Position numbers and translations under genes: made by a program. This document shows, piece after piece, positions 38,603-47,266 of a stretch of DNA of 64,000 bases (within the stretch, counting starts at the first letter, position 1; the number at the start of each line of letters is the position of its first letter). The stretch lies in NCBI RefSeq assembly GCF_003628555.1, contig NZ_CP021731.1, positions 1,364,001 through 1,428,000 on the forward strand, given 5' to 3'. The DNA comes from Azoarcus sp. DN11. Its GTDB lineage: Bacteria; Pseudomonadota; Gammaproteobacteria; Burkholderiales; Rhodocyclaceae. Under the pieces are notes generated by a model. The model worked only from the letters and a program-made list of their open reading frames with translations, was not told where the DNA came from and did no database searches.

Positions 38603-39450
38603 TGCCCCAGGTACGTTCCGTATTCATCTCCGACGTTCATCTCGGCACCCGTGCGTGCCAGGCCGACCGGCTGCTCGATTTCCTGCGCGAACACCCGTCT
38701 GACTACCTCTACATGGTGGGCGACATCGTCGACTTCTGGGCGATGAACCGCGGCATCCACTGGAGCGTGGCGCAGAACACCGTGGTGCAGAAGGTGCTGC
38801 GGCGCGCGCGCGGGGGATGCAAGGTGTTTTTCATTCCCGGCAATCACGACGAGGCACTGCGCGAGTACTCGGGGATCGCGTTCGGCGACATCCGCGTCGA
38901 GGCGGAATGGATGCATGAGGCGGCCGACGGACGCCGCTACTGGCTCGTGCATGGCGACGAATACGACCAGGTCACGCGCCACCACCGCTGGGTCGCGGTG
39001 CTGGGCGACGTCGGCTACAACACGCTGGTGCGCATCAACCTGTGGCTGTCGCGCGTGCGCCGGCTGCTGCGGCGGCCGGGTTACTGGTCGCTGGCAGGCT
39101 ATGCGAAGCAGAAGGTGAAGCGTGCGGTGAATTTCATCTTCGACTTCGAGGCGTCGATCGCCCACGCGACGCATCGCAAGGGGGCGGACGGGGTGATTTG
39201 CGGCCATATCCACTGGGCCGCCGACGCGCAGATCGAGGGTGTGCGCTATCTGAACTGCGGCGACTGGGTGGATAGCTGCACCGCGATCGTCGAGCATCTC
39301 GACGGACGCATGGAAATGGTGCGCTGGGGTGTGCCACGTGCATACGGCGCGGCGCAGCCGGTGTTCGACCGCGCCGACCTGCCGGGGCTGGCGACGGCCC
39401 GCGTGGCCGATCCGGCGGCACCCTCCGGGATCAGCGGGCGCATGCCCTGA
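38602..39450 (+). CDS. LpxH-like calcineurin-type metallophosphoesterase
   Basis: This 282-residue protein resembles UDP-2,3-diacylglucosamine diphosphatase. Metal-binding motifs are present in order: FISDVHLG (D10, H12), VGDIVDFW, PGNHDEAL, VHGDEYD and GHIHWA. Between the last two lies a helical insertion, rich in Arg, Trp and Leu, that in LpxH binds the acyl chains. The C-terminal tail beyond residue 245 is longer than in E. coli LpxH. Whether it acts in lipid A synthesis or on another lipid pyrophosphate is open. It is translationally coupled to the glycosyltransferase. Confidence 0.85.
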   Translation: MPQVRSVFISDVHLGTRACQADRLLDFLREHPSDYLYMVGDIVDFWAMNRGIHWSVAQNTVVQKVLRRARGGCKVFFIPGNHDEALREYSGIAFGDIRVEAEWMHEAADGRRYWLVHGDEYDQVTRHHRWVAVLGDVGYNTLVRINLWLSRVRRLLRRPGYWSLAGYAKQKVKRAVNFIFDFEASIAHATHRKGADGVICGHIHWAADAQIEGVRYLNCGDWVDSCTAIVEHLDGRMEMVRWGVPRAYGAAQPVFDRADLPGLATARVADPAAPSGISGRMP

Positions 39451-39510
39451 GCGGTCGCTTCGGCAGGCATCGCCGGCGGCCCGCCCGGGAACGCCGCCGG
39501 CCGGCCGCGT

Positions 39511-39696
39511 TCAGTCGTTGTCCTTCAGCCACTCCGGCAGCGTGCGGTTGCCGGCGTTCTCCTGAACGTACTGGCGGATCAGCCGACGAACGACCTGTGA
39601 GGGCGTCAGATCCTTGCTGGCGCAGATCTCTTCGAAGAGCCGCTTCTTTTCCGGGTCGATCAGCAGGGTCAGGCGGGCAGTCCGATTCTCTTTCAT
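39511..39696 (-). CDS. Ribbon-helix-helix (CopG/Arc-like) regulator
   Basis: This 61-residue protein has an N-terminal strand (RTARLTLLIDPEK) followed by helix-turn-helix segments KRLFEEICASKDLTPSQVVRRLIRQYVQEN, as in ribbon-helix-helix DNA-binding dimers. The LTPSQVVRRLIR segment is the usual second helix. Its start lies 21 bp from a pair of ATTAACAT direct repeats and 255 bp from the divergent Ehr operon. No toxin gene is beside it, so it is probably an autonomous repressor. The Shine-Dalgarno is weak. Confidence 0.78.
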   Translation of the reverse strand: MKENRTARLTLLIDPEKKRLFEEICASKDLTPSQVVRRLIRQYVQENAGNRTLPEWLKDND

Positions 39697-39717
39697 CTCG
39701 CGTCACCGGCGACGGTG

Positions 39718-39763
39718 ATTAACATCAAATTAACATTGAAAGCGGCATCGGTATTAATGTAAT
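39718..39763 (+). promoter_or_regulatory. Promoter and direct repeats before the Ehr operon
   Basis: Two ATTAACAT copies start at 39718 and 39729, one DNA turn (11 bp) apart. They are followed by a sigma-70-like promoter TTGAAA-N16-TGTAAT (39736-39763) reading toward the Ehr operon. The second repeat abuts the -35 element. The arrangement fits binding by the adjacent ribbon-helix-helix protein. The leader from here to the first Ehr codon (about 180 bp) holds no convincing gene. Confidence 0.55.
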
Positions 39764-39950
39764 GTGCAAAGGATGCAAACGCAATGGCACACTCAGGGAG
39801 TCCGGCCGGTGGGCGAAAGGGAAGCGGTTCTCGGTTGCTGCATGGCACCGTCCGAAGGTGTGCGGCCCCGCGCGCGGTGCAATGCGCCCGGCTTGCGGCG
39901 CGGACGTGCCGCTGTGGGCGACCGTCGGCGCTGACATCGGGGGAGGAGGC

Positions 39951-41954
39951 GTGCTGGTTCTCGACTGGATCCTGATCGTCGTCGCGGGCTGGCTCGCGCT
40001 GGGGTTCGCCGGGATCGCGGCGTTGCGCAACACCGCGTTCGTCGCCCGCGTGCTGTTTCCGACCGGGGCCGTGCTCGCGGCCGCGCTCGCGGGGTTCGCC
40101 GCCGCTGCATTGCCCGGCTCGCCGGAGACCGCCGTGCTCGCGCTGGGCCTGCCCGGGCTGCCTTTCCACCTGCGTCTGGACGGGCTGTCGGCCTTTTTCC
40201 TGCTCGTGATCGGCGTGACCTCCTTCGGCATTTCGGTTTTCGCCGCGGGCTACTTCCGCCACGGCGAGGGCACGCCGCCCGGGCTGATGTGCCTCGAATA
40301 CCACATCTTCCTCGCCAGCATGGCGCTCGTCGTGCTCGCTGACGACGCCTACGCCTTCATGGTGATGTGGGAAACGATGGCCTTGTCGTCCTTCTTTCTC
40401 GTCACCGCGAACCACCGCGTGCCCGCGATCCGCGAGGCGGGCTTCCTTTATCTGCTGATCGCGCACATCGGCGCGATCGCGATCCTGCTGTGCTTCGGCG
40501 TGCTGCAGGCGAACACGGGCGACTACACCTTCGCCAACATGCGCGCGCAATCGCTGCCGCCGCTGTGGGCCTCGGCCGCCTTCCTCCTCGCGACGCTCGG
40601 TTTCGGCGCGAAGGCGGGCATCCTGCCGCTGCACGTGTGGCTGCCGGAGGCCCACCCGGCGGCGCCGTCGCCGGTGTCCGCGCTGATGAGTGCCGTGATG
40701 CTGAAAACGGCGGTCTACGGCCTGCTGCGCGTGAGCTTCGACCTGCTCGGCGCGCAGCAGTGGTGGTGGGGCGTGCTGCTCATGGCCGTCGGCCTCGCGA
40801 CGGCGCTGTACGGGGTGGTGTTCAGCGCGGTGCAGACCGACATGAAGCGCCTGCTCGCGTATTCGTCGATCGAGAACATCGGCCTGCTTTTCGTCGGTAT
40901 CGGCCTCGGCGTGCTGTTCAACGCCTACGGCATGAAGGCGCTGTCGGCGCTGGCGCTCACTGCGGCGCTGTACCACGTGGTCGCCCATGCCCTCTTCAAG
41001 AGTCTGCTGTTCCTCGCGACCGGCTCGGTGCTGCACTCGACCGGCGAGCGCAGCCTGGGCAAGCTCGGCGGTCTGATGCGACGCATGCCCTGGGTGGCCT
41101 GGCTGTCGCTCGTCGGCGTGCTGGCGAGTTCGGGGCTGCCGCCGTTCTCCGGCTTCGTCTCGGAATGGCTGCTGTTGCAGAGCTTCCTGTTCACGACGGG
41201 CCTGCCGGACTCCTTCCTCAACATGCTGGTGCCGGTGCTCGCGGCGGGCATCGCGCTGGTGGCAGCGCTCGCCGGCTACACGATGGTGAAGTTCTACGGC
41301 GTGATCTTCCTCGGCCAGCCGCGCGAGCCCAAGCTTGCCCACGCGCATCCGTCTTCGCCGCTCGAGCGCGCGGGCCTCGTCTGGCTCGGGGCGTGCTGCG
41401 TGCTGCTGGGACTCTTCCCGGCGCAGCTGATCGACCTGATCGACCGGGTCACACAACTCCTGGTGGGTGGCGGCATTGCCGACACGGTGCGCGCGAACGG
41501 CTGGCTGCTGCTGGCGCCGCGATCGCTCGATCGCGCGAGCTACGGCCCGCTGGTATTCCTGCTGGTGGTCAGCTTCGCGGTGCTGCTCGCGGTGGTGCTG
41601 GTGCGCAAGCTCTATCACGGCCGCCTGCGCCGTGCGCCGGCGTGGGATTGCGGCTATCCGGCGCAGACGCCGCGCATGCAGGATACGGCGGAGGGCTTTG
41701 GCCAGCCGATCCGCCAGATCTTCGAACCCTTCTTCCGCATGCGGCGCGAGCTGCCGTCGCCCTTTGACGCGAAGCCGCGTTACAGCGTCACGATCGAGGA
41801 CCATTTCTGGCACTGGCTGTATCTGCCGGTCGCCGGCCTCACCGCGCGCATCGCGCGCGGCATCGGGCGGCTGCAGCAGGGGCGCATCGCGATCTACCTG
41901 CTGTACAGCTTCGTGACCCTGATGGTCCTGCTGCTGGTGGTGGTGAAATCATGA
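39951..41954 (+). CDS. HyfB/NuoL-like antiporter subunit of Ehr complex
   Basis: This 667-residue membrane subunit has about 16 predicted helices. The central Mrp/NuoL-type domain has E in MVMWETMALSSF, K in GAKAGILPLHVWLPEAHP and K in SALMSAVMLKTAVYG, the proton-channel residues of this family. The C-terminal third has a long amphipathic region. The start is GTG at 39951, directly preceded by GGGAGGAGGC; the frame runs 189 bp upstream but has no ribosome-binding site and no helices. It is the first gene of the operon and overlaps the next by 4 bp. Confidence 0.9.
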   Translation: MLVLDWILIVVAGWLALGFAGIAALRNTAFVARVLFPTGAVLAAALAGFAAAALPGSPETAVLALGLPGLPFHLRLDGLSAFFLLVIGVTSFGISVFAAGYFRHGEGTPPGLMCLEYHIFLASMALVVLADDAYAFMVMWETMALSSFFLVTANHRVPAIREAGFLYLLIAHIGAIAILLCFGVLQANTGDYTFANMRAQSLPPLWASAAFLLATLGFGAKAGILPLHVWLPEAHPAAPSPVSALMSAVMLKTAVYGLLRVSFDLLGAQQWWWGVLLMAVGLATALYGVVFSAVQTDMKRLLAYSSIENIGLLFVGIGLGVLFNAYGMKALSALALTAALYHVVAHALFKSLLFLATGSVLHSTGERSLGKLGGLMRRMPWVAWLSLVGVLASSGLPPFSGFVSEWLLLQSFLFTTGLPDSFLNMLVPVLAAGIALVAALAGYTMVKFYGVIFLGQPREPKLAHAHPSSPLERAGLVWLGACCVLLGLFPAQLIDLIDRVTQLLVGGGIADTVRANGWLLLAPRSLDRASYGPLVFLLVVSFAVLLAVVLVRKLYHGRLRRAPAWDCGYPAQTPRMQDTAEGFGQPIRQIFEPFFRMRRELPSPFDAKPRYSVTIEDHFWHWLYLPVAGLTARIARGIGRLQQGRIAIYLLYSFVTLMVLLLVVVKS

Positions 41955-42898
41955 GTGTCGCGGGCCTGTTCGCGCAGTTGCTCGCCGTGGTGCTCGCGCT
42001 CGCGCTGGCGCCCTTGCTGACGGGCTGGGTGAACCAGTGGCGCGCGTGGCTGCAGAACCGGCGCGCGCCGGGCCTGCTGCAACCCTATCGCGTGCTGCAC
42101 AAGCTGTTCAACAAGGAATCGGTCGTCGCCGAGCACGCGACGCCGCTGTTTCGCGTCGCGCCCTACATCATGTTCGGCTGCATGGCGCTGGCGTGCGGCA
42201 TCGCGCCGACGCTGTCGACCGACCTGCCGCTCGCGCCCGCGGCCGACGCGATCGCGTTGGTCGGCCTGTTCGCGCTGGCGCGGGTGTTCATCTCGCTTGC
42301 GGCAATGGATATCGGCACTTCCTTCGGCACGCTGGGCGCGCGGCGCGAGATGCTGATCGGCTTCCTCGCCGAGCCAGCGCTGCTGATGGTGCTGTTCTCG
42401 GCCTCGCTCATCACGCGCTCGACCTCGCTGGCGAATATCGTCGAGACACTCGCACACCAGCCCTTCGCGATCCACCCGAGCCTCGCCGTCGCGGGCGTTG
42501 CGTTCACGATGGTGTCGCTGGCGGAAAATGCGCGCGTGCCGGTCGACAACCCCGCCACCCATCTCGAACTGACGATGATCCACGAGGCGCTGATCCTGGA
42601 ATATTCGGGGCGCCATCTGGCGCTCGTCGAATGGGCAGCGTCGCTGAAGCTGTTCGCGTATTCGTGCATCGGGCTGGCGCTGTTCGTGCCGTGGGGCGTC
42701 GCAGAGGCGGGTACGCCGCTGGCAATCCTGTTCGCGATTCCGATGTTGGTCGTGAAGCTGGCGGTCGGCGGTGTGCTGCTCGCGCTGATCGAGACGATCA
42801 ACGCGAAGATGCGCCTCTTCCGCGTGCCGGAGTTCCTCGCGACGGCCTTCCTGCTCGCGGTGATCGCGTTGCTGGTGCATGTGCTGCTGGGGGCCTGA
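41951..42898 (+). CDS. HyfC/NuoH-like membrane subunit of Ehr complex
   Basis: This 315-residue protein has eight predicted helices, homologous to NuoH/HycD, the subunit joining the membrane arm to the peripheral arm. Conserved loops are present: NRRAPGLLQPYRVLHKLFNKE, FGTLGARREMLIGFLAEP and ENARVPVDNPATHLELTMIHEALILEYSG, with the acidic residues of the quinone/proton path. It overlaps the upstream gene by 4 bp and abuts the next. Confidence 0.92.
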   Translation: MSVAGLFAQLLAVVLALALAPLLTGWVNQWRAWLQNRRAPGLLQPYRVLHKLFNKESVVAEHATPLFRVAPYIMFGCMALACGIAPTLSTDLPLAPAADAIALVGLFALARVFISLAAMDIGTSFGTLGARREMLIGFLAEPALLMVLFSASLITRSTSLANIVETLAHQPFAIHPSLAVAGVAFTMVSLAENARVPVDNPATHLELTMIHEALILEYSGRHLALVEWAASLKLFAYSCIGLALFVPWGVAEAGTPLAILFAIPMLVVKLAVGGVLLALIETINAKMRLFRVPEFLATAFLLAVIALLVHVLLGA

Positions 42899-42899
42899 G

Positions 42900-43559
42900 G
42901 TGACGAACCTGCTGTCCCAGTCGATCAATCTCTTCGCCGTCGTGCTGCTCGTGCTCGCGTTCGCGATGATCGCGCAGCGCCGCATCCTGACGCTGATCCA
43001 TCTGTTCACGCTGCAGGGCGCGGCGCTGGCGGCGGCGACCCTGATCGTCGGCTACCTCACGGGCCAGCACCACTTGTACTTTTCCGCGGTGCTGACCTTC
43101 GTGCTGAAGGTGATCCTGATCCCGATCCTGCTGCACCGGGTGATCCGGCGCCTGAACGTGCGCTGGGACGTCGAGACGCTGTTCAACATTCCGACGACGA
43201 TGCTGATCGGCATCGTGCTGGTGATCTTCGCCTTCAACCTCGCCGCGCCGATCGCAGGCCTGTCCACCTCGATCGCGCGCGGCACGCTGGGGATCGCGCT
43301 CGCCTGCGTGCTGCTGTCCTTCCTGATGATGATCGTGCGCGCGAAGGCGGTGCCGCAGGTGATCGGCTTCCTGTCGATGGAGAACGGCCTGTTCTTCGCG
43401 GCCACCGCGGCGACCAGCGGCATGCCGATGATCGTCGAGCTGGGTATCGCATTCGACGTGCTGGTCGGCATCCTGATCCTCGGCGTGTTCATGTTCCAGA
43501 TCCGCGAGCAGTTCGACAGCCTGGACATCCGCCATCTCGAAAAGCTGAAGGAAGACTGA
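42900..43559 (+). CDS. HyfE/NuoK-like membrane subunit of Ehr complex
   Basis: This 219-residue protein has about seven helices and resembles HyfE/HycC-associated NuoK-type subunits. The N-terminal LFAVVLLVLAFAMIAQRRILTLIHLFTLQGAALA and VIGFLSMENGLFFAATA are typical. GTG at 42900 follows the previous stop by one base; a 7-codon upstream extension would lie within the preceding gene. The C-terminus is charged (HLEKLKED). Its last base is the first base of the next start codon. Confidence 0.88.
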   Translation: MTNLLSQSINLFAVVLLVLAFAMIAQRRILTLIHLFTLQGAALAAATLIVGYLTGQHHLYFSAVLTFVLKVILIPILLHRVIRRLNVRWDVETLFNIPTTMLIGIVLVIFAFNLAAPIAGLSTSIARGTLGIALACVLLSFLMMIVRAKAVPQVIGFLSMENGLFFAATAATSGMPMIVELGIAFDVLVGILILGVFMFQIREQFDSLDIRHLEKLKED

Positions 43560-45013
43560 TGGATCCGCTCCTCCTCGTTCTCGCGACTCCGCTGCTGGGC
43601 GGCGTGCTGCTCGCGTTGTGGGGCGACCGCGAGCGGGCGGGGGAGCTGAACGCCGCGATGAGCCTGCTGACATTGGCGGCGTCCGTGTGGCTCACGGTGA
43701 TCGTCGTGCGCGACGGGCCGCTCATGGTGTGGGGCGAGTGGTTCTTCGTCGATCCGCTCAACGTTTTCCTGGTGACGCTGACCGCCTTCGTGGGCTTCAC
43801 GACTTCGCTGTTTTCGCGGCCCTACATGCGCATCGAGCGCGACCACGGGAAGATGACGCCGGGGCGGATGCGGCTCTTCCACAGCATGTACCAGCTCTTC
43901 AACGGCATGATGCTGGTCGCGCTGACGACCAACAACCTCGGCATCCTGTGGGTGGCGATGGAGGCGGCGACGCTGACGACCGTGCTGCTGGTGTCGGTGT
44001 ATCGCACCGCGGCGAGCCTGGAGGCGGCGTGGAAGTACTTCATCCTGTGCGGCGTGGGCATCGCGCAGGCGCTGTTCGGGACGATCCTGCTCTACCTCGC
44101 GGCCGAGCGCGCGATCGGGGGCGGCGAGGGGGCGCTGCTGTGGACCCACCTTGCGCAATCCAAGCACCTGCTCGATCCCGGCATCCTGTCGCTGGCTTTC
44201 GTGTTCCTGCTGCTCGGCTATGGCACCAAGGTGGGCCTCGTGCCGGTGCACAACTGGTTGCCCGACGCGCACGCGGAAGGCCCGACGCCGATCTCGGCGG
44301 TGCTGTCGGGGCTGTTGCTGAACGTCGCGCTGTATGCCTTGCTGCGCTGCAAGGTGCTGGCGGACGGGGCGCTTGCGAACGGCCTGCCGGGGCGCATGAT
44401 GATCGGCTTCGGCCTCGTCACCGTGGTCGTCGCGGCTTTCTTCCTGTCGCGCCAGCGCGACGTCAAGCGCATGTTCGCGTATTCGTCGATCGAGCACATG
44501 GGGCTGATGACCTTTGCCTTCGGCCTGGGCGGCCCGATCGCGAATTTTGCCGGGCTGCTGCACATGACCGTGCATGCGCTGGTGAAGTCGGCGATCTTCT
44601 TCGCCGTCGGCCACGCCGCGCAGAAGGCCGGTTCGCAAGCGATGGAGGACATCCGCGGCCTGCTGAAGGTGAATCCGACGGTTGGCTGGGGGCTCATGCT
44701 CGGCTCGCTGGCGATCCTCGGCATGCCGCCCTTCGGGGTGTTCGCGAGCGAGTTCCTGGTCCTGACGACGGCGATGCGTGAGGCGCCGTGGGCCACGCCC
44801 TTCCTGCTCGTCGCGCTCGGTGTGGCGTTCGCGGCGATCTTCGGGCGCGTGCAGCCGATGGTGTTCGGCGAGACTTCGCTGCGCCCGCTCGCCCACCCGC
44901 CGGCGCTGCTGCCGGTGTTCGCCCATCTCGGGCTCGCGCTGCTGCTGGGGCTTTACGTCCCGCCCTACCTGGACGGCTGGTACCGGCAGGCGGCCCAGAT
45001 GATAGGAGGCTAG
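43559..45013 (+). CDS. HyfF/NuoM-like antiporter subunit of Ehr complex
   Basis: This 484-residue antiporter-like subunit has about 14 helices. Channel residues are E in VAMEAATLTTVLLV, K in YGTKVGLVPVHNWLPDAHAEGPTP and K in RDVKRMFAYSSIEHMG. It forms the second proton-pumping unit with the HyfB-like protein. It starts with the ATG that overlaps the previous stop by one base. The next gene is 154 bp away, the only large gap in the operon. Confidence 0.9.
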   Translation: MDPLLLVLATPLLGGVLLALWGDRERAGELNAAMSLLTLAASVWLTVIVVRDGPLMVWGEWFFVDPLNVFLVTLTAFVGFTTSLFSRPYMRIERDHGKMTPGRMRLFHSMYQLFNGMMLVALTTNNLGILWVAMEAATLTTVLLVSVYRTAASLEAAWKYFILCGVGIAQALFGTILLYLAAERAIGGGEGALLWTHLAQSKHLLDPGILSLAFVFLLLGYGTKVGLVPVHNWLPDAHAEGPTPISAVLSGLLLNVALYALLRCKVLADGALANGLPGRMMIGFGLVTVVVAAFFLSRQRDVKRMFAYSSIEHMGLMTFAFGLGGPIANFAGLLHMTVHALVKSAIFFAVGHAAQKAGSQAMEDIRGLLKVNPTVGWGLMLGSLAILGMPPFGVFASEFLVLTTAMREAPWATPFLLVALGVAFAAIFGRVQPMVFGETSLRPLAHPPALLPVFAHLGLALLLGLYVPPYLDGWYRQAAQMIGG

Positions 45014-45167
45014 AGTGCAACTACCCCCACGCTCACAGGTTTCGTGGAGGGCCGACTGCGCACAGCCGGCCCGTTCGGCGGGCGCGAAGCAGTGCTTCGC
45101 GAATTCCCCTCCTCACCCCCCCGAGGGGGCGCAGGCCTCCCTTGGGGCGGCCCGGCGGGAGGCCTGA
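45014..45167 (+). repeat. GC-rich dispersed-type repeat within the Ehr operon
   Basis: The 154-bp gap begins GCAACTACCCCCACGCTCAC and contains CCCCCCGAGGGGG and a GGCGGCCCGGCGGGAGGCC block. I recognise similar sequences as dispersed intergenic repeats in GC-rich betaproteobacteria, from memory only. The hairpin arms are at about 45114-45129. The GGGAGG at its 3' end serves as the ribosome-binding site of the large-subunit gene. Only one copy is seen in this window. Confidence 0.5.
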
Positions 45168-46712
45168 GTGGAGTTTTTCGGACTGGATTGCCGCTTCGAA
45201 CGCTTCGACGCGCCCCTGCCGATCTACGGTGCGCGCGTCCTCGCCGGGCAGTGGAGTGCGCTCGCGCTGGCCGTGGCGGAGGCGAAGGGGCGGCTCGTGA
45301 GCTTGTGGGGCAGCGACGAGCGTGCCGCCGGCGACGGTTTCGCGGTGTCGGCGGCGTACGCGACCGCGGACGGGCTGCTGTGGGCGAAGCTCGGGCTGGA
45401 TGCGGCGAAGCCTGCGTACCCGGACATCTCGCGCTTCTTCCCCGTGGCGAACCGCATGCAGCGCGCCGCGCGCGACCTGGTCGGCATCGAGGCCGAGGAC
45501 GCGGGGGACGCCCGCGCGTGGCTGCGTCACGGCGCGTGGCCGGCGGACTATTTCCCGCTGCGCATCGGGAACACCGGCCAGGAGCGCTTCGAGGCGCAGG
45601 CCGACGCCTACCCCTTCGTCCCCGTCGAGGGCGACGGCGTGCATGAGATCGCGGTCGGGCCGGTGCATGCGGGCACGATCGAACCGGGCCACTTCCGCTT
45701 CTCGGTGGTGGGTGAGAAGGTGCTGCGGCTCGAGGAGCGGCTGGGTTACAACCACAAGGGAATCGAGCGCCGTTTCATGGGCATGGCCACGGACGAGGGC
45801 GCGCGGCTGGCCGGACGGGTATCGGGCGACAGCACCGTTGCGTATGCGTGGGCCTACGCGATGGCGGTCGAATCGCTGGCCGGCGTGAAGGTGCCCGAAC
45901 GCGCGGCGTGGCTGCGCGCGCTGATGCTCGAGCGCGAGCGGGTCGCGAACCATCTCGGGGACCTCGGCGCGCTCGGCAACGACGCGGCGTTCGGCTTCGC
46001 GCTCGCGCAGTTCTCCCGTCTGCGTGAGGACTGGTTGCGCCTGAACCGCGAGTGCTTCGGCCATCGCCTGATGATGGATGGTGTCCGTCCGGGCGGGGTC
46101 GCGCGCGACCTCGACGCGGATGGTTGCGCGCAGCTGCGTCGGCAGGTGACGGTGATCGCAGGCGAGGTCGCCGAGCTGAAGGACATCTACGACGAGCACG
46201 CGGGGCTGCAGGACCGTCTCGTCACGACCGGCCGCGCCACGCCGGAACTCGCACAACGCCTGGGCCTGACGGGGCTCGCCGGGCGGGCGAGCGGACAGGC
46301 GGCCGACCTGCGGGCGGACTTTCCGTGGCCGCCTTACGACGGCCTCGCCGTGACGGCCTGCACGCAGCGCAACGGCGACGTCGCGGCCCGCGTCGCGGTG
46401 CGCTTCGACGAGTGTTTCGCGTCGCTGCGGATGATCGACGCGCTGCTCGCCGGACTGCCGGGCGGATCGGTCCATGAGCCGGTCCTCGCCACGCGGGACG
46501 GGGTCGGGGCCGGCTGGGTCGAAGGCTGGCGCGGCGAGGTGTTCGTCGCGCTGGAGACCAACGCGCAGGGGCGCATCGCGCGCTGCCACTGCCACGATCC
46601 TTCGTGGCAGAACTGGCCGGTGCTCGAGCACGCGATCATCGGCAACATCGTTCCGGACTTCCCGCTGATCAACAAGTCGTTCAACCTGAGCTATTCGGGG
46701 CAGGATCTGTAA
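45168..46712 (+). CDS. HyfG-like large subunit lacking the NiFe site (Ehr)
   Basis: This 514-residue fusion has a NuoC-like N-terminal domain (about 1-140) and a NuoD/hydrogenase-3-large-subunit domain. In true group 4 hydrogenases the NiFe cluster is held by CxxC in the RxCGxC motif and by DPCxxC at the C-terminus. Here the first reads GRVSGDSTVAYAW and the last LSYSGQDL, so all four cysteines are gone. The fold segments (YNHKGIERRF, VPDFPLINKSFNL) are retained. The GTG start has GGGAGG 6 bases upstream. It can still dock on the HyfI-like FeS subunit but cannot be a hydrogenase. Its stop overlaps the next ATG by one base. Confidence 0.9.
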   Translation: MEFFGLDCRFERFDAPLPIYGARVLAGQWSALALAVAEAKGRLVSLWGSDERAAGDGFAVSAAYATADGLLWAKLGLDAAKPAYPDISRFFPVANRMQRAARDLVGIEAEDAGDARAWLRHGAWPADYFPLRIGNTGQERFEAQADAYPFVPVEGDGVHEIAVGPVHAGTIEPGHFRFSVVGEKVLRLEERLGYNHKGIERRFMGMATDEGARLAGRVSGDSTVAYAWAYAMAVESLAGVKVPERAAWLRALMLERERVANHLGDLGALGNDAAFGFALAQFSRLREDWLRLNRECFGHRLMMDGVRPGGVARDLDADGCAQLRRQVTVIAGEVAELKDIYDEHAGLQDRLVTTGRATPELAQRLGLTGLAGRASGQAADLRADFPWPPYDGLAVTACTQRNGDVAARVAVRFDECFASLRMIDALLAGLPGGSVHEPVLATRDGVGAGWVEGWRGEVFVALETNAQGRIARCHCHDPSWQNWPVLEHAIIGNIVPDFPLINKSFNLSYSGQDL

Positions 46713-47266
46713 TGTGGCACATCCTGAAGTACATCGCCCGCCGCGGCCGTGTCACCGAGCCCGCGCCCGAATCGCTGAAGGGCCCGCATCGCCCCGCGCA
46801 CCCGGTCCATGACGAGATCCTCGCGATCCTCGGTCGCGCGCTGGCGATCCGGCAGGTCGATGCCGGGTCGTGCAACGGCTGCGAGCTGGAGATCAACGCG
46901 CTCAGCAACCCCTACTACAACATCGAGGGACTCGGCATCCGCTTCGTCGCCAGCCCGCGCCACGCCGACATGCTGCTCGTGACCGGACCGGTGTCGCGCC
47001 ACATGGAGCTTGCACTGCGGCGCACCTACGACGCGACGCCGGCGCCCAAGCTGGTCGTCGCGGTGGGGGATTGCGGCTGCACCGGCGGGATCTTCGGCGA
47101 GAGTTACGCGAGCTGCGGCGGCGTGTCGAACGTGATCCCGGTGGACGTGATCGTGCCGGGCTGTCCGCCGCCGCCGGCGGAGATCCTGGCCGGGATCCTG
47201 GCCGCGGTGCGCGCGCGGCCACCGATCGAGGCTGCGCCAGCGACTTTCGAACCCGGGTTCAACTGA
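46712..47266 (+). CDS. HyfI/NuoB-like iron-sulfur subunit of Ehr complex
   Basis: This 184-residue protein binds one 4Fe-4S cluster (N2-like). Ligands are visible in DAGSCNGCELEI (CxxC), GDCGCTGG and VPGCPPPPAEIL. It would pass electrons between the large subunit and a quinone-like site at the membrane arm. The C-terminal extension after PPP is short. It is the last gene; a 7-bp-stem hairpin follows. The operon has no HyfH (two 4Fe-4S ferredoxin) subunit and no hyfA or hyfD. Confidence 0.92.
   Translation: MWHILKYIARRGRVTEPAPESLKGPHRPAHPVHDEILAILGRALAIRQVDAGSCNGCELEINALSNPYYNIEGLGIRFVASPRHADMLLVTGPVSRHMELALRRTYDATPAPKLVVAVGDCGCTGGIFGESYASCGGVSNVIPVDVIVPGCPPPPAEILAGILAAVRARPPIEAAPATFEPGFN

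Follow-up and report, generated by a model that had tools for sequence, protein, structure and literature searches.

What is left of a hydrogenase once the cysteines that hold its metal site are gone, and what could such a complex still do? The question is raised by six tightly spaced genes on the forward strand, positions 39951–47266, of a 64,000-nucleotide stretch (hereafter, "the window") of Azoarcus sp. DN11, whose genome is a single contig of 4.96 Mb (NZ_CP021731.1; the window covers positions 1,364,001 to 1,428,000). The genes encode a group-4-hydrogenase-like membrane complex, with a membrane arm of HyfB-, HyfC-, HyfE- and HyfF-like subunits, a large subunit in which NuoC- and NuoD-like parts are fused, and a small subunit resembling NuoB. 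The gene order B-C-E-F-G-I, the fused NuoC/D and the lack of HyfA, HyfD and HyfH constitute the layout of the Hyq complex of Azorhizobium caulinodans; a gene for a ferredoxin-type subunit (HyfA, HyfH) was not found within the six-gene operon. The large subunit almost certainly contains no NiFe site, and the complex probably couples a redox reaction to ion movement at a conserved site of another kind.

The large subunit and its former ligand loops

An earlier note on this DNA had assigned the large subunit to the fold of group 4 hydrogenases and NuoD, and had regarded both CxxC pairs as gone, with RVSGDS and LSYSGQDL in their places. The fold is confirmed by the matches to PF00329 and PF00346 and by the best solved relative, 7z0s_E, and the model calculated with AlphaFold2 agrees with it. 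In the alignment with Escherichia coli HycE (7z0s), S219-G-D221-S222 stands in place of the first pair and S508-Y-S-G511 in place of the last. This holds throughout the family set of 127 Hyq-type large subunits, 104 of which are nearer to the window protein and 23 nearer to HyqG of A. caulinodans: 116 have no cysteine at the four ligand columns, 11 have one, and none has two or more. The commonest four-column pattern, SSSG (88/127), is also that of the window protein, while the HycE-type controls, with which the note had proposed a comparison, read CCCC in 7/7. These controls were taken from the genomes G226, G282, G300, G170 and G007, from the second copy in G043, and from Klebsiella pneumoniae hycE (G and L numbers denote genomes and loci of our sample); the HycE-like G259, G318 and G338 were counted by score only, and G038 is of a different type (L179, see below) and no HycE control. 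By this protein, the nearest named relatives belong to Azoarcus/Aromatoleum, with identities of 84% (Azoarcus sp. KH32C) and 82% (A. aromaticum); identity to P0001 is 92%.

The end of the protein points in the same direction. HycE-type large subunits carry a C-terminal tail that is cleaved off at maturation, and the controls extend 29–35 residues beyond the last ligand column (n = 7). Such a tail was not found in 126 of the 127 Hyq proteins, all of which end exactly three residues past that column (511), the remaining one having no end in the alignment. Hydrogenase-3 and -4 (HycE, HyfG; formate hydrogenlyase) thus share with the window complex the fused NuoC/D large subunit, the kinds of membrane subunits and the best structural match, but own three things that it lacks: the four cysteine ligands, the tail and the HyfH/HycF ferredoxin subunit. 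Group 4 [NiFe] hydrogenases are marked by four cysteines in two CxxC pairs, none of which is present in the window protein, and we regard the absence of a NiFe site from it as practically certain.

The former site is not degenerate, since a degenerate site would drift. D221 is aspartate in 127/127 proteins, residue 219 is serine in 109 and alanine or cysteine in 18, and G511 and D513 are invariant in all 126 proteins with a residue at these columns. Across the NuoD-like part, 70 columns have one residue in at least 97% of the 127 proteins, and 20 of these 70 carry a residue seen in none of the seven HycE controls; D221, D265, D272, D477, N502, K503, N506 and G511 are among the Hyq-specific columns. 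In and near the loops that once held the ligands, the strongly kept new residues are G220-D221, D272, R455, D477-P-S, N502-K503-S-F, Y509 and D513. At the position of D272, aspartate is also found in NuoD of the host, and phenylalanine or leucine in the HycE controls. The NiFe site has been replaced by a conserved polar set rather than simply lost, and the alignment with hydrogenases suggests that the new residues line one pocket. C473 and H474 (RCH motif), which in the first 30 sequences seemed plausible as a new metal site, were dropped because C473 is poorly kept: it is cysteine in only 58/104 proteins of the window branch and 20/23 of the HyqG branch, and alanine in A. caulinodans.

Hyq, the Ehr label and the occurrence of the family

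The A. caulinodans locus was located by means of published primers. Among 391 genomes of the family to which G346 belongs, Hyq-Prox matches once, on a contig of 5,369,772 bases (L174). Within 16 kb there, Hyq-Dist and, by their gene-specific ends, Hyq-B and Hyq-C match as well, spaced as expected for an operon of 7.4 kb; Hyq-A as printed has no match at this locus. According to the match positions in L174, the operon of A. caulinodans ORS571 (hyqRBCEFGI; PMC2650096, PMC3357923) has the same six structural genes in the same order. Its HyqG is 46.5% identical to residues 18–514 of the window protein and ends in NCSYAGHDL. Both complexes lack the CxxC pairs and the ferredoxin subunit, have a single-cluster small subunit and share the large-subunit end ...SY.G.DL. 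They differ in regulation genes: A. caulinodans has a hyqR-type gene, whereas the window has a divergent RHH_9 gene instead and none of the former directly before hyfB. Rhizobium leguminosarum, named as bearer of an orthologue (PMC2650096, PMC3357923), has the same gene order in strain 3841. On these grounds, we take the window operon to be orthologous to Hyq and to belong to a separate branch of the family.

The statement of the earlier note that no physiological role is established is, consequently, only partly right, as it overlooks the deletion phenotypes described for A. caulinodans (PMC2650096, PMC3357923). Ng et al. (2009) report that deletion of hyqR-I slows growth on N2 by about one fifth and hardly alters growth on ammonium, and that hyq expression depends on NifA (PMC2650096). 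TGT-N10-ACA sites were found neither in the 64-kb window nor in the A. caulinodans locus, so that this search has no power. In the work of Sprecher et al. (2012), H2 release at 20 µM O2 increased more than tenfold upon loss of hyq, from 12 to 175 in their units, while microaerobic release was 61,000 in the hupSL mutant versus 14,000 in the double mutant, and 56,600 in the nifK hupSL strain (PMC3357923). They inferred that Hyq is an H2:quinone oxidoreductase and stated, at the same time, that HyqG of eight genera lacks both CxxC pairs and that a NiFe site is "uncertain, if not unlikely" (PMC3357923). Thus, H2 uptake and high-rate H2 evolution are ascribed in print to a complex whose NiFe site the same work doubts (PMC3357923). 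This leaves two options, an indirect origin of the H2 effects in A. caulinodans or a new kind of H2 chemistry, and the family survey turns this contradiction of the literature into a simple genetic question. The Hyq kind, which falls within the Ehr (energy-converting-hydrogenase-related) label, and its missing CxxC pairs are already in print (PMC3357923); new are the separate branch of the window member, the count of ligands and tails in 127 proteins, the absence of HypD and NifD from part of the Hyq genomes, the conserved replacement site and the lost electron wire.

Ehr is defined as a group-4-like complex with an antiporter-like arm and without NiFe ligands (PMC6349859). The window complex has group-4-like subunits, such an arm and no NiFe ligands, so the earlier assignment to the Ehr type stands on that definition (PMC6349859). 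The complex of Geobacter sulfurreducens (GSU0739-45), likened here by description, is likewise hydrogenase-like with antiporter-like subunits and no NiFe ligands, and is more abundant with formate (PMC7894505). The label is a loose one, which at least three lineages could bear, namely the types of the window, L179 and L182. Coppi reportedly named Ehr, and Marreiros is said to have surveyed such complexes.

The latter two lineages also lack a full NiFe site. L179 (genome G038) has one of the four ligand cysteines (ICGDSS) and L182 (a Burkholderia cenocepacia plasmid) none, and both have a small subunit with a ferredoxin domain for two clusters fused to it. G-D-S (220–222), D-P-S (477–479) and the C-terminal N-K-S-F, L-S-Y and D-L are present, within the L179 type, in 33/33 aligned relatives, the query's own copy among them, which were drawn from the 120 best matches listed. 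Hyq and L179 form a clade with a support of 0.995, and Hyq, L179 and L182 one with 0.939; the separation of Hyq from L179 reaches only 0.29, so that L179 as an outside sister is not firm. At its N-terminus, the small subunit of Hyq (M..LLKQI.RTG..TEPAP) looks similar to the beginning of HycF (MFTFIKKVIKTGTATHAYPLEPMP), a likeness seen by eye and unscored; it gives the impression that a fused ancestor lost an internal ferredoxin domain. The conserved site thus probably predates the disappearance of the ferredoxin wire, and this would imply that the site does redox work or did so until recently. The L179 type may be a separate, as yet unnamed enzyme. Its operon lies at L179:7-7165, and the 120 best matches listed, Rhodoferax ferrireducens among them, are at least 64% identical. 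The L182 complex (L182:3778-11920) is on a plasmid typed as conjugative and has a DUF190 gene at its start.

By score, the Hyq family occurs in 22/61 sampled genomes of the host's family and in 57/299 of its phylum. HypD, without which the Fe(CN)2CO moiety of the [NiFe] site is not assembled, was found by profile search in 38 of 66 Hyq genomes and is missing from 28; prevalence was compared within the Hyq and HycE-like genomes, and HypD is present in the seven HycE-like genomes of the sample as well as in G007 and G038. NifD lies above the cut-off in 22 of the 66 genomes and in none of the other 44, and both proteins are missing from 26. Eleven of the 57 genomes were left out of these counts (G188, G192, G196, G228, G244, G252, G258, G263, G266, G302 and G323), and G204, whose match at the end of a contig is only partial, did not count as a Hyq genome. 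Some HypD-negative genomes are drafts, and HypD may be missing from the assembly in G109, which has strong matches to other NiFe hydrogenases, and in G255, which has other NiFe-family matches. G199, G277 and G346, all single-contig genomes with a completeness of 100 and SSSG large subunits, lack both HypD and NifD; there, Hyq would work without a NiFe cofactor and without recycling H2 from nitrogenase. These absences strengthen the case against a NiFe site and indicate that the general job of Hyq is neither NiFe catalysis nor the recycling of nitrogenase H2. In the genome of the window itself, HypD, NifD and another NiFe-family large subunit are all present, so that the argument from HypD speaks for the family and not for this genome alone. 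A published link between Hyq and the absence of HypD was not found in titles and abstract openings, mostly of non-subscription journals. A third PF00374 match of the host genome (L003; 4927496-4927744, reverse strand), about 3 kb from HypD and with the last motif DPCMAY lacking the second cysteine, is presumably an accessory protein of the HupK/HoxV type.

Hyq is normally an addition to complex I, as NuoF is nearly universal: it was found in 66 of 67 genomes (the 66 Hyq genomes and A. caulinodans), in 65 of them above the cut-off. The 0.9-Mb genome G239 (completeness 100) departs from this. Its NuoD search yields Hyq and a broken piece of 107 amino acids only, with fragmentary NuoB and NuoC matches beside it, and profile searches found no NuoF, HypD, NifD or heme-copper oxidase (COX1). 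The Hyq genes for the small and large subunits, F and E are open (L189, L154), hyfC is open up to the contig end, and hyfB is not on the contig read. If this holds, Hyq survives the erosion of a genome for longer than complex I and the oxidase do.

Cluster, proton path and possible function

The small subunit binds, according to its motifs, a single [4Fe-4S] cluster through C64, C67, C131 and C161 (numbering of the extracted frame). The first three ligands are kept in 123/123 sequences and the fourth in 122/123, with one gap. In the membrane arm, E150, K230, K261, K359 and E414 of HyfB are conserved (the K261 column has 98 lysines and 7 asparagines), as are E144, K233, K352 and E407 of HyfF and, in 113–114 of 114 sequences, E201, E215, E221 and E226 of HyfC, numbered in an extracted frame that begins some residues upstream of the ATG at 41951. 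Equivalent residues in NuoL/M/N/H carry protons. The earlier claim that both antiporter-like subunits keep their ion-channel residues is right for nearly all of them, and wrong for the central lysine of HyfF, which is asparagine in 120/123 rows. Complex I (NuoB, C, D, H, L, M, N) shares with the window complex the fold, the carboxylates and lysines of the E-channel and antiporters, and an aspartate corresponding to D272, but differs by its NADH module, NuoI, the histidine and tyrosine of the quinone site, and the CC pair of NuoB in place of the hydrogenase-type CxxC. At L163:2760-6874 and L169:2737-6851 (operon turned to the forward strand), the hyfB-like gene is doubled in tandem (701 and 670 amino acids); the resulting complex would have three subunits of the antiporter-like kind.

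Strong constraint acts on cluster ligands, new site and proton path alike; for this reason, we rank redox-coupled ion translocation first and consider it likely for Hyq. Its specific form, a minimal six-subunit, NiFe-free machine of the complex I type in which electron transfer between a carrier, the [4Fe-4S] cluster and the pocket is coupled to ion movement, is proposed tentatively. A soluble low-potential carrier (ferredoxin or flavodoxin) would dock where the HyfH/NuoI-like module used to be and exchange electrons directly with the single cluster, and a small molecule, most likely a quinone, would be reduced or oxidised in the pocket; this chemistry would drive proton transfer along the carboxylate and lysine chain through HyfC, HyfB and, minus one lysine, HyfF. 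The pairing of a low-potential carrier with quinone is conceivable but somewhat doubtful. The machine might also run backwards, spending membrane potential to make low-potential reductant, which would fit the NifA control in Azorhizobium; the 44 Hyq genomes without NifD speak against that fit. An energy phenotype of the hyq deletion in A. caulinodans is in keeping with redox-coupled translocation (PMC2650096, PMC3357923).

Several observations weigh against this proposal. The published H2 effects are left unexplained by it unless they are indirect. The histidine and tyrosine that form part of the NuoD quinone site are not kept (GPVHAGTIEP versus GPQHPSAHGV; RVSGDS versus RLDYVS), so quinone has no support from the classical residues, and the AlphaFold2 model has a pLDDT below 50 at 147–197, 492–495 and 510–514, so that the pocket geometry is not visible in it. 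With open Hyq genes in the absence of NuoF and COX1, G239 weakens the notion that Hyq feeds aerobic respiration. Finally, no gene for a donor or acceptor is linked to the operon: only 1/127 loci has a ferredoxin-like double motif in its flanks, many flanks being short and the motif covering one ferredoxin type, so that others would escape. At this locus (L162), there are two such frames, Rnf-like by eye, the nearer about 3.5 kb past the operon; at L007, a gene with the annotation "4Fe-4S binding protein" is situated about 3.4 kb upstream.

The most serious alternative, which we still deem unlikely, involves no electron transfer at all. Hyq would be an ion antiporter or gated channel with a structural cluster or one that serves as a redox sensor, consistent with the loss of the ferredoxin input module, of the NiFe ligands and of the quinone-site residues, and with the SulP-type permease genes that flank 11/85 operons. 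Against it stand the cluster ligands and the E-channel carboxylates, kept almost without exception, and the columns of the former ligand loops, which belong to the 70 best-conserved ones in the NuoD-like part.

More improbable is a NiFe-free H2:quinone oxidoreductase in the sense of Sprecher et al. (2012), with real oxidation and evolution of H2. We know of no H2 chemistry at a site like that of Hyq, and the numbers of Hyq genomes without NifD or HypD given above are likewise unfavourable. The shifts in H2 release upon hyq deletion, upwards at 20 µM O2 and downwards under microaerobic conditions, speak for it (PMC3357923). As far as considered here, however, these are whole-cell data; the strain table of that paper contains no nifK hupSL hyq triple mutant, and the nifA strain used beside nifK hupSL is hup+ by its listed genotype (PMC3357923). 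H2 activity dependent on the operon, which the earlier note had named as evidence that would overturn it, has therefore been claimed for the orthologue, in the data considered here from whole cells, by authors who doubt the NiFe site (PMC3357923).

Equally little credence is given to two readings that assign other chemistry to the pocket. Hyq might be a fourth kind of hydrogenase, in which a polar site rich in Asp, Lys and Arg beside the single [4Fe-4S] cluster performs reversible, ion-pump-coupled H2 chemistry and requires neither nickel nor iron-cyanide nor Hyp maturation proteins; if true, the H2 effects seen in vivo would no longer conflict with the lack of the cysteines and of HypD. Alternatively, Hyq might reduce sulfur or another substrate in the manner of the sulfane sulfur reductase MBS, with polar ligands replacing sulfur in the pocket. 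The solved relative 6u8y_L (E = 1e-23), listed as NADH dehydrogenase subunit D, is in our understanding MBS, which presumably also has no complete NiFe site, and several Hyq loci come from metagenome-assembled genomes of genera that oxidise sulfur or iron, Thiobacillus and Gallionella among them. MBS, however, retains cysteines in its site, of which the Hyq site has none in 116/127 proteins, and no gene of sulfur metabolism was recognised among the recurring neighbours, most of which are unannotated.

A NiFe site with ligands moved to other cysteines is barely credible. Sprecher et al. describe three cysteines of HyqG (258, 491, 497) as fully conserved in eight genera (PMC3357923). Indeed, each column is cysteine in 22/23 proteins of the HyqG branch, but in only 19, 2 and 17, respectively, of the 104 proteins of the window branch, and the window protein has G270, I501 and L507; the set seems to be a feature of the HyqG branch and not defining for Hyq. 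G199, G277 and G346, members of the three-cysteine branch, are among the 28 genomes without HypD, and the maturation tail is absent, so this candidate was rejected. A decaying relic, to which the lost ligands and ferredoxin module might point, is contradicted by the conservation of the large subunit and of the six-gene operon in alpha- and betaproteobacterial loci, and can be set aside.

On the proposed reading, Hyq exemplifies a complex-I-like pump after the removal of both its catalytic metal and its electron wire. Its subunits are annotated as hydrogenase 4, formate hydrogenlyase or NADH-quinone oxidoreductase subunit C, names that may lead reconstructions of metabolism astray.

Gene layout and neighbourhood

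Table 1. Features of the Hyq-type operon and its upstream flank, in window positions.
Feature	Positions	Strand	Basis and remarks
RHH_9 ribbon-helix-helix protein, 61 aa	39511..39696	-	PF19839, 108.8 bits; divergent from operon
HyqB/HyfB-like antiporter-like membrane subunit	39951..41954	+	NF005086, 929 bits; GTG start preceded by GGAGGAGG
HyqC/HyfC-like (NuoH family) membrane subunit, E-channel carboxylates	41951..42898	+	PF00146, 123.6 bits
HyqE/HyfE-like membrane subunit	42879..43559	+	NF008556, 88 bits (under cut-off 136)
HyqF/HyfF-like antiporter-like membrane subunit; Asn264 at central TM8 lysine position	43559..45013	+	NF005045, 895 bits
hyqF-hyqG gap, 154 bp, dispersed-repeat sequence	45014..45167		Inverted repeat at 45132-45166
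HyqG-like large subunit, 514 aa, NuoC-like and NuoD/NiFe-large-like domains	45168..46712	+	PF00329, PF00346; best solved relative 7z0s_E
RVSGDS, residues 217-222, at first CxxC position of NiFe hydrogenases	45816..45833	+	Alignment
LSYSGQDL, residues 507-514, at last CxxC position; protein end	46686..46709	+	Alignment
HyqI-like small subunit, one hydrogenase-type [4Fe-4S] site (CNGC, GDC, PGC)	46709..47266	+	PF01058, 108 bits

Neighbouring genes were surveyed at 85 loci (the window, 4 plasmid loci and 80 genome-contig loci), many of which have short flanks, so that all counts are lower bounds. The RHH_9 protein, a homologue of which is present in at least 28/85 loci and lies at most 600 bp from the hyfB start in 19 of 69 loci with enough upstream sequence, is a likely candidate for a local regulator. 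Several loci of the HyqG branch have helix-turn-helix (HTH) regulators in its place; among 40 loci from other genomes, two kinds of HTH regulator were recognised by eye, in at least 11/40 and 7/40. A scan of 39400-40050 found no promoter or terminator.

A small protein with a spermidine synthase domain is encoded near the operon in at least 19/85 loci (e.g., L008:1699-2532), sometimes on both sides. SulP-type permeases (PF00916 and STAS) occur near hyfB in at least 11/85 loci (e.g., L050:2375-4591), in L050 and L052 directly upstream with a gap of 10 bases; L142 has a similar-looking membrane protein of 577 amino acids upstream, as judged by eye. A DUF1275 cluster was present in at least 9 loci and a MetG-like gene (by eye) in at least 13, the latter being taken as shared synteny. 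As clues to a substrate the neighbours were rejected, since the recurrent ones name none. The sequence between hyqF and hyqG has eight other partial matches across the host genome, with identities of 75–94%.

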